Source: Polynucleobacter sp. MWH-UH23A
Lineage (GTDB): Bacteria; Pseudomonadota; Gammaproteobacteria; Burkholderiales; Burkholderiaceae
Length of the DNA: 64,000 nucleotides
NCBI RefSeq assembly: GCF_040409805.1
Contig: NZ_CP099572.1
Location: forward strand, 1,116,001-1,180,000
Direction: 5' to 3'
Shown: positions 17,845 through 21,515 of the stretch, piece by piece
Layout: each line of letters begins with the position of its first letter
How positions within the stretch are numbered: the first letter of the stretch is position 1
Position numbers and translations under genes: made by a program
Notes under the pieces: model-generated
Databases searched by the model: none
Seen by the model: only the letters and a program-made list of their open reading frames with translations
Told to the model about the DNA's origin: nothing

Positions 17845-18126
17845 CTAAACAAACTTTTTGGCACCCTTAAAGACTTTTATAGCACCCCATCCTAAAGCCA
17901 AAACCTTGCTAGCCAATTTAGGCTTGTAATGCGCTAGAGCAGCAAAAGCACTTGTCCAAAGCAAAGGATTATCTCTAACGAAATGAAATGCGTCGATAGT
18001 CTTGTCAGCCCATGATAAAGGCTTTACCCAAGGCTCAAAGTGCCTTGCAAAATCAAGTCGCTCTCTCTGAGACTGCATTTGTAACTCAGAGCGTCTAAGT
18101 AGTAGACCTTTTATCTTTTGATTCAT
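17845..18126 (-). CDS. YqjK-like small protein
   Basis: A 93-residue protein with a basic, charged N-terminal half (LLLRRSELQMQSQRERLDFA) and a hydrophobic segment near the middle. It lies 3 bases after the holin-like YqjE gene and is the last of three tightly spaced genes, as in the yqjD-yqjE-yqjK locus of E. coli. The assignment rests mostly on position and general composition. Confidence 0.6.
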   Translation of the reverse strand: MNQKIKGLLLRRSELQMQSQRERLDFARHFEPWVKPLSWADKTIDAFHFVRDNPLLWTSAFAALAHYKPKLASKVLALGWGAIKVFKGAKKFV

Positions 18127-18504: not shown

Positions 18505-18816
18505 CTAGCGTCGACGAATAAATAATCCAATTAATAGACCCAATCCAGCAGCCACACCAATCGCCTCCCAAGGGTTTCGATGCACAAAATCATCCGCACC
18601 GGCAGCCACAACTTTTGCCTTATCGGCCAGATCACCCTCTAAGCTAGATATCTTTTCTTTTGCACCGGAAATTGTTTCCAACGCCTTGTTACGTAGGTTG
18701 CCAATGGTTTCGTCTGGATGATCCTGGGTTGCCTTGATTAACGTCTCCGCATCCGCAACTAGGGATTTAAATTCATCGATCAGTTGATCTGCTTGCTCTA
18801 TTTTTTTTGCTGTCAT
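18505..18816 (-). CDS. DUF883 (YqjD/ElaB/YgaM-family) membrane-anchored protein
   Basis: A 103-residue protein: a long helical, charged N-terminal part, then HRNPWEAIGVAAGLGLLIGLFIRRR at the C-terminus, a single tail anchor typical of YqjD/ElaB. Family members in E. coli associate with the membrane and ribosomes in stationary phase. It is the first gene of a three-gene cluster with YqjE- and YqjK-like proteins. Confidence 0.85.
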   Translation of the reverse strand: MTAKKIEQADQLIDEFKSLVADAETLIKATQDHPDETIGNLRNKALETISGAKEKISSLEGDLADKAKVVAAGADDFVHRNPWEAIGVAAGLGLLIGLFIRRR

Positions 18817-18842: not shown

Positions 18843-19304
18843 CTAAGCACTTCTGTAGCCAGACCCTAACAGCAATACAGTCATACCAGCGTTTGAGGCC
18901 TTGAAATGCCTCAAATACCGCTTCAGGCCGGGTCGTTTCTTTATTAACTCCAGATAGGCAGGGCTGCCATACGGCACATTTTCTCCGTAAATATACTCGT
19001 CCACTCGGTCTGCATAACGATTATTTTCTAAGGCCTCATGTATCGCCCTCTTGATATGCCCGCCCTGGCCAGATGAGCCATACCCATGAATGAGGATAAC
19101 AGCCTTCACACCTAGCTCTAGAAATTCGCGAATTTTTACTGCGAGTATTTCTAATGCATCATCTACGCTAGGATTGCCGAGTTTTATATTGAATTCAATC
19201 ACATCAACTGCCAATAACGGAATCTGAGGACTTCCACAGTGAGGGCAATCGCCAAATAGACTGCGAGCATTTCCACACTCAGAACATTCTGCTATCTGAG
19301 CCAT
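18843..19304 (-). CDS. Zinc-ribbon plus Smr-domain protein
   Basis: A 153-residue protein. Residues 7-23 contain CSECGNARSLFGDCPHCG, two CxxC pairs making a zinc ribbon. The rest is an Smr-like domain, with the family-type pattern of a helix (VDDALEILAVKIREFLE), strand AVILIHGYGSSGQGG and helix IKRAIHEAL; the HGYGSSGQGGH segment corresponds to the HGxGxG motif. Smr domains are nucleases or nucleic-acid binding modules. The zinc ribbon in front is a somewhat unusual arrangement. It follows the small secreted-protein gene by 17 bases. Confidence 0.75.
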   Translation of the reverse strand: MAQIAECSECGNARSLFGDCPHCGSPQIPLLAVDVIEFNIKLGNPSVDDALEILAVKIREFLELGVKAVILIHGYGSSGQGGHIKRAIHEALENNRYADRVDEYIYGENVPYGSPAYLELIKKRPGLKRYLRHFKASNAGMTVLLLGSGYRSA

Positions 19305-19321: not shown

Positions 19322-19618
19322 TTAAGAGCAGTATTTTGATTCGAGCGTGGCGGCGTTACTTGACTTGTCATCCACCATCAAGTTCAACTTCTTGTAGGCT
19401 ATCTCCTTATTTTCCGGTGTCTTGAGATGACGCTCAATCAAGCTAGCCACATCCTTGCGAATGGATGTATTGCCATACTGTAAGCCCTTTAATGTAGATA
19501 CAGCCTCAGCGGAAATCTTGCACTGTTGACTAACTAACGCTGATGAATCAGACGATGTGCTTGCGTATGCAAATGCCGCAAGCGAAATTGTTACGCCTGC
19601 TAATAGAGTTTTTTTCAT
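19322..19618 (-). CDS. Small secreted protein of unknown function
   Basis: A 98-residue protein with a signal peptide (KKTLLAGVTISLAAFAYA, probable cleavage after residue 19-20). The mature chain is helical and charged and has only two Cys, one near the start (QQCKIS) and one next to the last residue (KYCS), suggesting one disulfide. No family is recognised. The start is coupled to the upstream 59-codon HTH gene: stop and start are TAAGATG, and AAGGAA within the end of that gene serves as ribosome site. So regulator and secreted protein form one operon. Confidence 0.65.
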   Translation of the reverse strand: MKKTLLAGVTISLAAFAYASTSSDSSALVSQQCKISAEAVSTLKGLQYGNTSIRKDVASLIERHLKTPENKEIAYKKLNLMVDDKSSNAATLESKYCS

Positions 19619-19619
19619 C

Positions 19620-19799
19620 TTAGTTCCTTATTTTGTGACCACATGTTGGACAGCAACCCATATCTTTTGCTCTCGTTTTTCTGAGAGCGGCATACACGCT
19701 GGATTCTGAAATTTCCATCTTTCTTGCGGCTTGAGCTGCGCTCATACCCTTCCCTATCCACTCCAAAGCTTGATGTGTTTTCGGTATTCGTCTTTTCAT
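19620..19799 (-). CDS. 59-residue helix-turn-helix protein with C-terminal zinc knuckle
   Basis: A very small gene, start MKRRIPKTHQALEWIGKGMS, preceded by GGGAG 5 bases before its ATG. Residues about 18-42 (GMSAAQAARKMEISESSVYA) read as a helix-turn-helix of the homeodomain-like/resolvase type, followed by basic residues. The end, CCPTCGHKI, has C50, C53 and H55 as likely zinc ligands. The start is 20 bases downstream of the -10 box of a promoter containing a 29-base perfect palindrome, so it probably controls itself. The next gene starts 1 base after its stop. I know of no name for this protein. Confidence 0.75.
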   Translation of the reverse strand: MKRRIPKTHQALEWIGKGMSAAQAARKMEISESSVYAALRKTRAKDMGCCPTCGHKIRN

Positions 19800-19818
19800 T
19801 TCATCTCCCAGTTCTAAG

Positions 19819-19861
19819 ACTATATCACAACTTCACAACTTGTGAAGTTGTGAAGTATAGT
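19819..19861. promoter_or_regulatory. Palindromic operator with back-to-back promoter elements
   Basis: A perfect palindrome covers 19825-19853: arm TCACAACTTCACAA, one central C, arm TTGTGAAGTTGTGA. Each arm is itself a tandem repeat (CACAACTT twice; GTGAAGTT twice). On the minus strand -35 TTCACA (19846-19841) and -10 TATAGT (19824-19819, preceded by TG) are 16 bases apart, with the palindrome covering the space between. On the plus strand there are a matching TTCACA (19832-19837) and TATAGT (19856-19861) 18 bases apart. This is the layout of a repressor-controlled divergent promoter. Confidence 0.7.
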
Positions 19862-19990
19862 AATTTCATCATGACAAACCCTAATAAACGGAGCCTTTGA
19901 AATGAATTACGGAACGAAAGTTAGATAAATAGCCAGAAAAGCCAATGAGGTAATGGCAATAGTATGATTTGGAAAACTAAGGAGCTATAT
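19862..19990 (+). other. Non-coding stretch with short broken reading frames
   Basis: Downstream of the plus-strand promoter only very short frames exist: ATG at 19871 (9 codons), and ATG at 19902 with a GGAG site before it, which stops after 8 codons. The frame after that stop reads IARKANEVMAIV and then stops again. It may be the remnant of a small partner gene of the HTH protein, or simply a leader for the lipoprotein gene. Confidence 0.35.
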
Positions 19991-20586: not shown

Positions 20587-20612
20587 AAAAAACCGCCCGA
20601 AGGCGGTTTTTT
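20587..20612. terminator. Bidirectional terminator between lipoprotein and phasin genes
   Basis: Stem AACCGCC / GGCGGTT with loop CGAA is flanked by an A-run and a T-run. It sits between two convergent genes and can serve both. Confidence 0.9.
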
Positions 20613-20632
20613 AATTAAACAATTACTAATAA

Positions 20633-21208
20633 TTAAGCAGCAGCTTTACGGCTTTTAGCAGCTGGCTTAGCTACAGCGTATTGACCTTGAAAGTTAGCCA
20701 ATGCAGCGTCAACATTCTTTTCAAAAGTAGCGAATGCATCAGTAGCAGTTGCACGCACTTGGTCAAATTGTTGAATAGAAGCTTCGAAAGCTGTTTTGAA
20801 TGCAGATACAAATGCCTCAGAACCAGCAGGAGCAGATTTAGTAGCTTCTTTAACAAACTTAACTAAGTCATCGCGTGCGTCATCGATAGAAGCATCAACA
20901 ACTTGAGCAACTTCTTTGTTACCGTTGCGAACAACTTTGTTAACTTTTGCCTGGTATGCAGCAGCATACTTAGCAGCTTCTTGAGCAGCTTCAGGTTGAG
21001 CCAATTTAGCTAATTGCTGTGCATCTTTGATAGCCAACAACTGTGAGCTAGCATCTTGTGCAGCAGCCAATGCATCTTTAGCAGCGGCTTGGTTGATTTC
21101 TGCTAATTCTTGAGCACTTTCAACAGCTACTTGTGCCAAATGTTTAGCATTCTCAACAGCTTTAGCTTGAGCTTGAGCGATTTGATCGTTTAATTGATTC
21201 TGGAACAT
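20633..21208 (-). CDS. phaP: Phasin (PHB granule-associated protein)
   Basis: A 191-residue, Ala/Gln/Lys-rich, almost wholly helical protein starting MFQNQLNDQIAQAQAKAVENA. I chose the ATG at 21208 because AAAGGA lies 6 bases upstream; the frame remains open further up but without a ribosome site. It has long amphipathic helices without Cys and a basic tail KSRKAAA, typical of Phasin_2 proteins that coat polyhydroxybutyrate granules. Two TTGC-N6-GCAA sites lie upstream and may bind a PhaR-type repressor. phaC/A/B are not in the window. Confidence 0.88.
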   Translation of the reverse strand: MFQNQLNDQIAQAQAKAVENAKHLAQVAVESAQELAEINQAAAKDALAAAQDASSQLLAIKDAQQLAKLAQPEAAQEAAKYAAAYQAKVNKVVRNGNKEVAQVVDASIDDARDDLVKFVKEATKSAPAGSEAFVSAFKTAFEASIQQFDQVRATATDAFATFEKNVDAALANFQGQYAVAKPAAKSRKAAA

Positions 21209-21420: not shown

Positions 21421-21515
21421 TGGCGGAGACGAGAGGATTCGAACCTCCGATCAGAGTTTTAGCCCCGATGCTCCCTTAGCAGGGGAGTGCCTTCGACCAG
21501 CTCGGCCACGTCTCC
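21421..21515 (-). tRNA. tRNA-Ser(GCU)
   Basis: On the minus strand the sequence starts GGAGACGTGGCCGAG, has anticodon GCT in a CCCCTGCTAAGGG arm, a long variable arm typical of serine tRNAs, the T-loop GGTTCGAATCC and an encoded CCA. About 95 nt long. It lies between the phasin gene and lysC. Confidence 0.95.

Follow-up and report, generated by a model that had tools for sequence, protein, structure and literature searches.

A tandem repeat over the -35 box of a small helix-turn-helix gene pair in Polynucleobacter as the probable operator of a self-repressor

The gene pair and its promoter

The genome of Polynucleobacter sp. MWH-UH23A consists of a single contig of 2.07 Mb (NZ_CP099572.1), of which a stretch of 64,000 nucleotides was analysed (positions 1,116,001 to 1,180,000; hereafter the window, from the first letter of which all positions are counted). 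On its minus strand, from position 19854 to 19322, the window carries a promoter with tandem 8-base repeats, a gene for a 59-amino acid helix-turn-helix (HTH) protein and a gene for a 98-amino acid protein. The HTH protein is proposed here to be a self-repressor acting on the -35 box of its own promoter. Its open reading frame (ORF; 19620-19799), preceded by the ribosome-binding site GGGAG (19805-19809, assigned by eye), and its tight coupling to the second small gene (19322-19618) had been noticed in a first-pass annotation, and both were confirmed, the junction in the window being TAA-G-ATG.

Read in steps of eight bases, the window promoter consists of TTCACAAC (unit 1, 19847-19854), TTCACAAG (unit 2, 19839-19846), the inverted unit TTGTGAAG (19831-19838) and TTGTGATA, which merges into the -10 box TATAGT (19824-19819). 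The sequence TTCACA of unit 2 (19846-19841) is the -35 box, and the two boxes, assigned by a consensus scan and by comparison with other genomes, are separated by a spacer of 16 bases. Together they match the consensus at 10 of 12 positions, and the -10 box carries a TG extension. As the scan returned three promoter-like sites against 4.5 expected from shuffled sequences, it proves nothing by itself.

Two direct and two inverted units make up a perfect 29-base palindrome (19825-19853) with arms of 14 bases, a centre of one base, 100% complementarity and a tandem 8-mer in each arm. Its existence had been stated in the first-pass annotation and holds; it is beyond chance, since resampling the 64-kb window 40 times under a first-order Markov model yielded no perfect palindrome with arms of at least 14 bases and a loop of at most three. 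The annotation had placed it exactly between the -35 and -10 boxes; instead, it contains the former and abuts the latter. Among 66 copies of the promoter from 63 genomes, perfect arms of 14 bases occur in one copy, of 13 in three and of 10 in eight, and a second perfect palindrome is readable in locus L160 of another set, which comprises 57 loci from named records and partly overlaps the genomes of the 66 copies. Given this rarity of long arms, the palindrome was rejected as a conserved operator; it is an elaboration that inverted units have added in a particular lineage. The mirror-image promoter boxes that had been described on the plus strand are likewise present in the window, and the consensus scan finds them; the mirror -10 sequence ACTATA stands just 5' of the repeats in only 6 of the 66 copies, so that a divergent promoter was rejected as a conserved feature. 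The earlier description of the window features is thus partly confirmed.

Conservation and registers of the tandem repeat

What is conserved among the promoters is the tandem direct repeat. Counting as a tandem at least two adjoining units, each containing TTCACA with at most one mismatch, TTCACAAC-TTCACAAC with one unit as the -35 box is present in 60 of the 66 promoters. Of these 60 standard promoters, 58 have TATAGT without a mismatch. The spacer between the boxes measures 16 bases in 27 of them, the units lying 24 and 16 bases 5' of the -10 box, and 18 bases in the other 33, with units at 18 and 10 or at 26 and 18 bases. In the repeat blocks, spacer-16 promoters have identities of 0.84 and 0.98 and spacer-18 promoters of 0.99 and 0.95; the stretch from -110 to -80 gives 0.28 in either class. 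A tree was built from 480 columns of the HTH and 98-amino acid genes, with 24 starred and 17 open branches among its 63 inner ones. On it, the register switched at least seven times among 60 labelled rows, a number made uncertain by weak inner branches.

The 27 promoters with spacer 16 share a further element, TTAGGGTTTGTCAT in the window (19871-19884, minus strand). With the pattern TTAGGGTwTnTCAy, it lies about 16 bases 5' of the repeats, and the block from -60 to -45 has a mean identity of 0.73 in this class as against 0.27 in the 33 promoters with spacer 18. It may be the site of a second regulator or the end of a cassette; a genome scan with the element gave 13 places as compared with 10 for a control.

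Changes in the operator go together with a change in the protein. Scored by their best match to a tandem consensus of 18 bases, 60 of the 61 copies encoding serine at residue 34 had none to two mismatches (44, 14 and 2 copies, respectively), G017 had nine, five copies encoding glycine at this position had three to seven, and 64 flank controls had 7 to 11. Residue 34 lies close to where the recognition helix begins. In the set from named records, all 54 standard promoters occur with S34 (13 and 41 across the two registers) and all three changed promoters with G34, two of the latter being from one genome. The five S34G copies (in G022, G030 twice, G048b and G083b) all lack the standard tandem and have units such as TTCAGTAC-TTCTGTAG before TATAGT, although G083b retains one standard TTCACAAC unit. 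In each of them the start codon follows 7 nt behind the -10 box, which suggests leaderless transcripts. The copies form one starred clade and hence represent a single event; their proteins also differ elsewhere, with Q9 in all five. In G017 (L086), the sixth copy without a tandem, both reading frames are intact and the operator and the -10 box are lost, which looks like promoter loss ahead of gene loss.

Distribution and a single site per genome

A search of 101 genomes of the genus detected the HTH gene in 63 (in 55 of the 79 good-quality ones) and the 98-amino acid protein in the same 63. All homologues labelled with a genus name are from Polynucleobacter, the rest being assigned to betaproteobacteria, Burkholderiaceae or Pseudomonadota, apart from one 26-residue match in a Desulfovibrio record. 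At the level of the order (300 genomes), the HTH query matched six genomes, four of them in the genus, and a profile of the 98-amino acid protein matched four, all in the genus; an HTH profile matched 19 of 200 genomes of the family, 17 of which belong to the genus. As far as searched, the unit is restricted to the genus and is under selection.

A 20-base repeat sequence, with up to two mismatches allowed and with overlapping and inverted matches merged, was found in 59 of the 101 genomes, at one place in each. In 57 cases this place is just upstream of the HTH gene; in the other two (G067 and G089) the gene was not detected and the contig stops 31 and 70 bases past the site. The tandem is likewise absent from 36 of the 38 genomes in which no HTH gene was detected, the remaining two being those with a site at a contig end. 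Six gene-bearing genomes have no match to the 20-mer: the site is lost in G017 and changed in G022 and G030, while G026, G034 and G093 possess standard tandem units that differ from the 20-mer at more than two positions. In the genome of the window itself, no second 20-base site was found at up to three mismatches. Comparison of sequences establishes the conservation of the repeat, its single place per genome, the constant position of a unit on the box in standard promoters, the co-inheritance of the HTH and 98-amino acid genes, and the gene order. The ORF and the repeats are conserved in relatives and the palindrome is not, which answers in two ways a check on their conservation that had accompanied the first-pass annotation. 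A single site at the promoter of the regulator itself points to the 59-amino acid protein as the binder.

The 59-amino acid HTH protein

A structure model of the protein has three helices up to residue 46, followed by an irregular tail (predicted local distance difference test (pLDDT) score, 83.5). The tail contains the motif CCxxC; its cysteines (C49-C50-x2-C53) are present in all 66 copies, and residue 55 is histidine in 61 of them. The motif had been called a zinc knuckle: the cysteines are kept throughout the copies, a metagenomic relative (P0036) has Y49, and zinc binding is putative. It may be guessed that the tail serves metal- or thiol-linked pairing, or sensing.

The HTH is distantly like region 4 of sigma-70, to judge from its sequence. 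PF08281, the family of this region, matched the protein (P0001) with 24.2 bits at a curated cut-off of 25.7, and at E ≤ 0.001 it matched 31 of 34 members of the HTH family. Pfam gave no match of the ORF to sigma region 2, which binds the core enzyme and the -10 box, and KorA is absent from the 16 Pfam families matched at E ≤ 1. PHROGs and NCBIfam gave weak HTH matches, and sequence searches of the PDB gave no firm match. The ratio of nonsynonymous to synonymous substitution rates (dN/dS), calculated for pairs with dS of 0.1 to 1.5 from up to 400 drawn pairs, has a median of 0.085 over 322 pairs of the HTH gene.

Proposed mechanism

The 59-amino acid protein is probably a self-repressor whose HTH units, bound in tandem, would cover the -35 box. 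Its recognition helix would read TTCACAAC, with two or more copies of the protein sitting side by side on the head-to-tail 8-bp array. Because the -35 box lies within one of the units, protein bound there would exclude sigma region 4 and block RNA polymerase. Repression would lower the output of the HTH gene and the 98-amino acid gene and, in most genomes including that of the window, the downstream Smr-like, YqjD/ElaB-like, YqjE-like and YqjK-like genes are probably controlled as well. Where a promoter has inverted units, as the window promoter does, these would provide further sites in the opposite orientation. The array could shift relative to the -10 box provided that some unit covers the -35 box, which would explain why two registers arose repeatedly. 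We infer that the protein is the binder, that its binding represses and that the downstream genes lie on the same transcript, repression being preferred to activation because the promoter seems to need no helper. The self-repressing switch proposed in the first-pass annotation is still the best reading, given the one site per genome on the gene's own promoter and the altered site in the clade with the altered recognition helix; taken as a whole, the earlier interpretation is partly supported.

The same protein could instead act as a self-activator, recruiting polymerase from its position at -35 in a positive-feedback switch. Some activators bind at -35, and the restriction to two registers (16 and 18) would agree with the often strict geometry of activators. 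However, the boxes are already good, with 10 of 12 consensus positions and an extended -10, and the -35 hexamer itself lies within the units, which makes activation unlikely.

Binding by the HTH protein is putative, and the repeats might instead belong to a different regulator with a wide range of targets, the HTH protein then acting elsewhere. A 13-mer half-site with one mismatch is indeed found at six other places in the genome of the window; yet the reversed control gives four, so that the extra places are near chance, and a wider regulon was rejected on these counts. Moreover, the full tandem is seen at the HTH promoter only and is missing from 36 of the 38 genomes without the gene. A different regulator is therefore regarded as quite unlikely.

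The 98-amino acid protein

The proposed self-repressor is coupled to a 98-amino acid protein with a signal-peptide-like start, cysteines at positions 33 and 97 and four predicted helices (pLDDT, 76.7). The gap between the two genes is 1 nt in 61 of the 66 copies, and in all 66 the protein contains two cysteines beyond residue 22. That it is small and secreted had been proposed before, and the start of the ORF agrees with this as judged by eye; export can be inferred. A saposin-like arrangement of the helices is one candidate fold; the best Foldseek match has an E value of 1.1. Against Pfam, 3 of 18 family members matched VWA (best E, 0.0003), other matches being weak, and PHROGs and NCBIfam gave none. 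The median dN/dS values for two length classes of the gene are 0.045 and 0.052 (70 and 138 pairs), and both genes of the pair are under purifying selection.

The pair resembles a toxin-antitoxin system, in which the HTH protein would be the DNA-binding antitoxin and the 98-amino acid protein the toxin, in being small and coupled, in having the regulator first and a repeat operator, and in its patchy presence (63 of 101 genomes) and duplicated unit. Such a role is nevertheless highly unlikely: if the signal-peptide-like start, judged by eye, leads to export, the protein would not meet its antitoxin, purifying selection on both genes is strong, and PADLOC gave no match for the 98-amino acid protein and weak HTH-type matches for the regulator (best E, 0.0095).

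Genomic neighbourhood and duplication

In the window the gene pair is followed, on the same strand, by genes for an Smr-like/zinc-ribbon protein (18843-19304; Smr, 25.2 bits, just under the cut-off of 25.7), a DUF883 (YqjD/ElaB-like) protein (18505-18816; PF05957 and PF19029), a membrane protein with PF07332 (18130-18498), called YqjE-like here from its gene position, and a YqjK-like protein (17845-18126; PF13997). The Smr-like start codon is located 17 nt past the 98-amino acid gene, and in 49 of the 66 copies an Smr start motif occurs 14-69 nt past the stop codon of this gene. The flanks of 40 copies were compared by eye, Pfam being applied to the window genes. The same-strand Smr-like gene follows in 36 of these contexts and the DUF883 and YqjE-like genes in 37, while a reverse-strand gene of 363-364 amino acids intervenes in seven, accompanied by a second gene in G034. 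The one intervening gene scanned, that of L068, encodes an alpha/beta hydrolase.

A YqjE-like match was obtained in 70 genomes, nine of which lack the HTH/98-amino acid pair. Eight of these nine were read, and the Smr-, YqjE- and YqjK-like genes are kept in all eight; in these genomes, too, a zinc-ribbon and Smr-like gene heads the YqjD/YqjE/YqjK block.

On the upstream side, a tRNA-Ser gene (GCT; 21421-21515) lies beside lysC, within 2 kb of the pair, and the gene content of the stretch from lysC to the pair varies among genomes, as at an integration hotspot. That the pair is a phage-like or plasmid-like leftover, as the first-pass annotation had ventured, can hardly be the case: tRNA genes are common integration sites and distant relatives (37-41% identity; L065 and L066, judged from ORF lists) occur in two genomes elsewhere in the order, but tblastn with the HTH protein gave no match in 50,697 phage records (E ≤ 0.1) or 72,556 plasmid records (E ≤ 0.01), the same chromosomal genes follow in 37 of 40 contexts, and the dN/dS medians of 0.085 and about 0.05 speak of purifying selection. 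The sole candidate for an RNA element in the region, an rsmX match (20587-20659, minus strand; 25.1 of 56 bits, E 0.03) with a hairpin and a run of T seen by eye, is below threshold, lies outside the unit and is probably due to chance; it was rejected.

Genome G030 carries two copies of the unit (L099 and L100) on different contigs. They share a block of 560 columns with 99.5% identity, which begins 78 bases 5' of the start codon, spans the two genes and ends a few bases past the stop codon. Blastn revealed no further match between the two 8.2-kb stretches, and neither terminal repeats nor a transposase were seen around the copies; duplication and gene conversion would both fit. The copies G030b, G048b, G083b and G022 (together loci L096, L100, L101 and L148) directly precede a gene for a membrane histidine kinase of about 480 amino acids, as identified by Pfam for the gene in G083b; relatives of this kinase at E ≤ 1e-20 are present in 85 of the 101 genomes.

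Comparison with known systems

In the parts of the open-licence PMC literature on Polynucleobacter that were covered, no description of the gene pair was found, and the motifs in the portion consulted of one paper differ from the present repeats (PMC8632094).

The operator unit resembles the -35 box recognized by sigma-70 region 4 (PF08281), and the 59 amino acids hold no other part of a sigma factor. MetJ binds contiguous 8-bp met boxes that are themselves palindromic. With ParB/Omega of pSM19035, contiguous heptad arrays are bound side by side, as is proposed here (PMC9499535). Both MetJ and Omega are ribbon-helix-helix proteins, whereas the present protein is an HTH by Pfam and by its model, and TTCACAAC is not palindromic.

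The operator design is similar to that of ArdK of plasmid R388, a small HTH repressor of the KorA family with an HTH like that of sigma-70. Its crystallised operator is given as a direct repeat of TTGACA, one copy of which is the -35 box, and inverted repeats are bound as well (PMC9723621). A direct repeat on the -35 box is what 60 of the 66 present promoters have, too. The starts of the ArdK repeats, counted in the printed operator, are 10 bp apart, as compared with units of 8 bp here; ArdK has a strand-helix dimerization domain where the 59-amino acid protein has its CCxxC tail, and it represses five plasmid genes, while one chromosomal site was found for the present family. In the absence of a family match and of a dimerization domain, the 59-amino acid protein is not an ArdK. 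The same source describes binding to direct repeats as limited to few regulators (PMC9723621). Dozens of promoters in the present family vary naturally in register (two are in use), in the number of direct units (two or three) and in whether inverted units are present, and in a single clade recognition helix and units have both changed; together they form a data set for a tiny protein that would read tandem -35 sites.

The genes downstream recall yqjCDEK of E. coli, in which a small first gene is followed by genes for YqjD (DUF883), YqjE and YqjK in the same order. The first gene products are not homologous by Pfam, as DUF1090, presumably the family of YqjC, was matched at E ≤ 1 neither by the 98-amino acid protein (P0002) nor by 18 members of its family. 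In E. coli, YqjD is, like its paralogue ElaB, a ribosome-binding protein; expression increases in stationary phase, and the operon is governed by sigma-S promoters and CsrA, with neither an HTH nor an Smr gene (PMC10746276). An excess of YqjD or YqjE halts growth, so that their expression must be held in check (PMC10746276). It is tempting, if rather speculative, to regard the unit as a minimal chromosomal repressor, in which a -35-like 8-bp array under a head-to-tail filament of sigma-region-4-like HTHs, with a register sliding between spacers of 16 and 18 while control is kept, forms a copyable 560-bp cassette that mostly caps a ribosome-hibernation-type YqjD/YqjE/YqjK operon. The comparison with E. 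coli hints at how a freshwater genus may control this gene block with a regulator of 59 amino acids.
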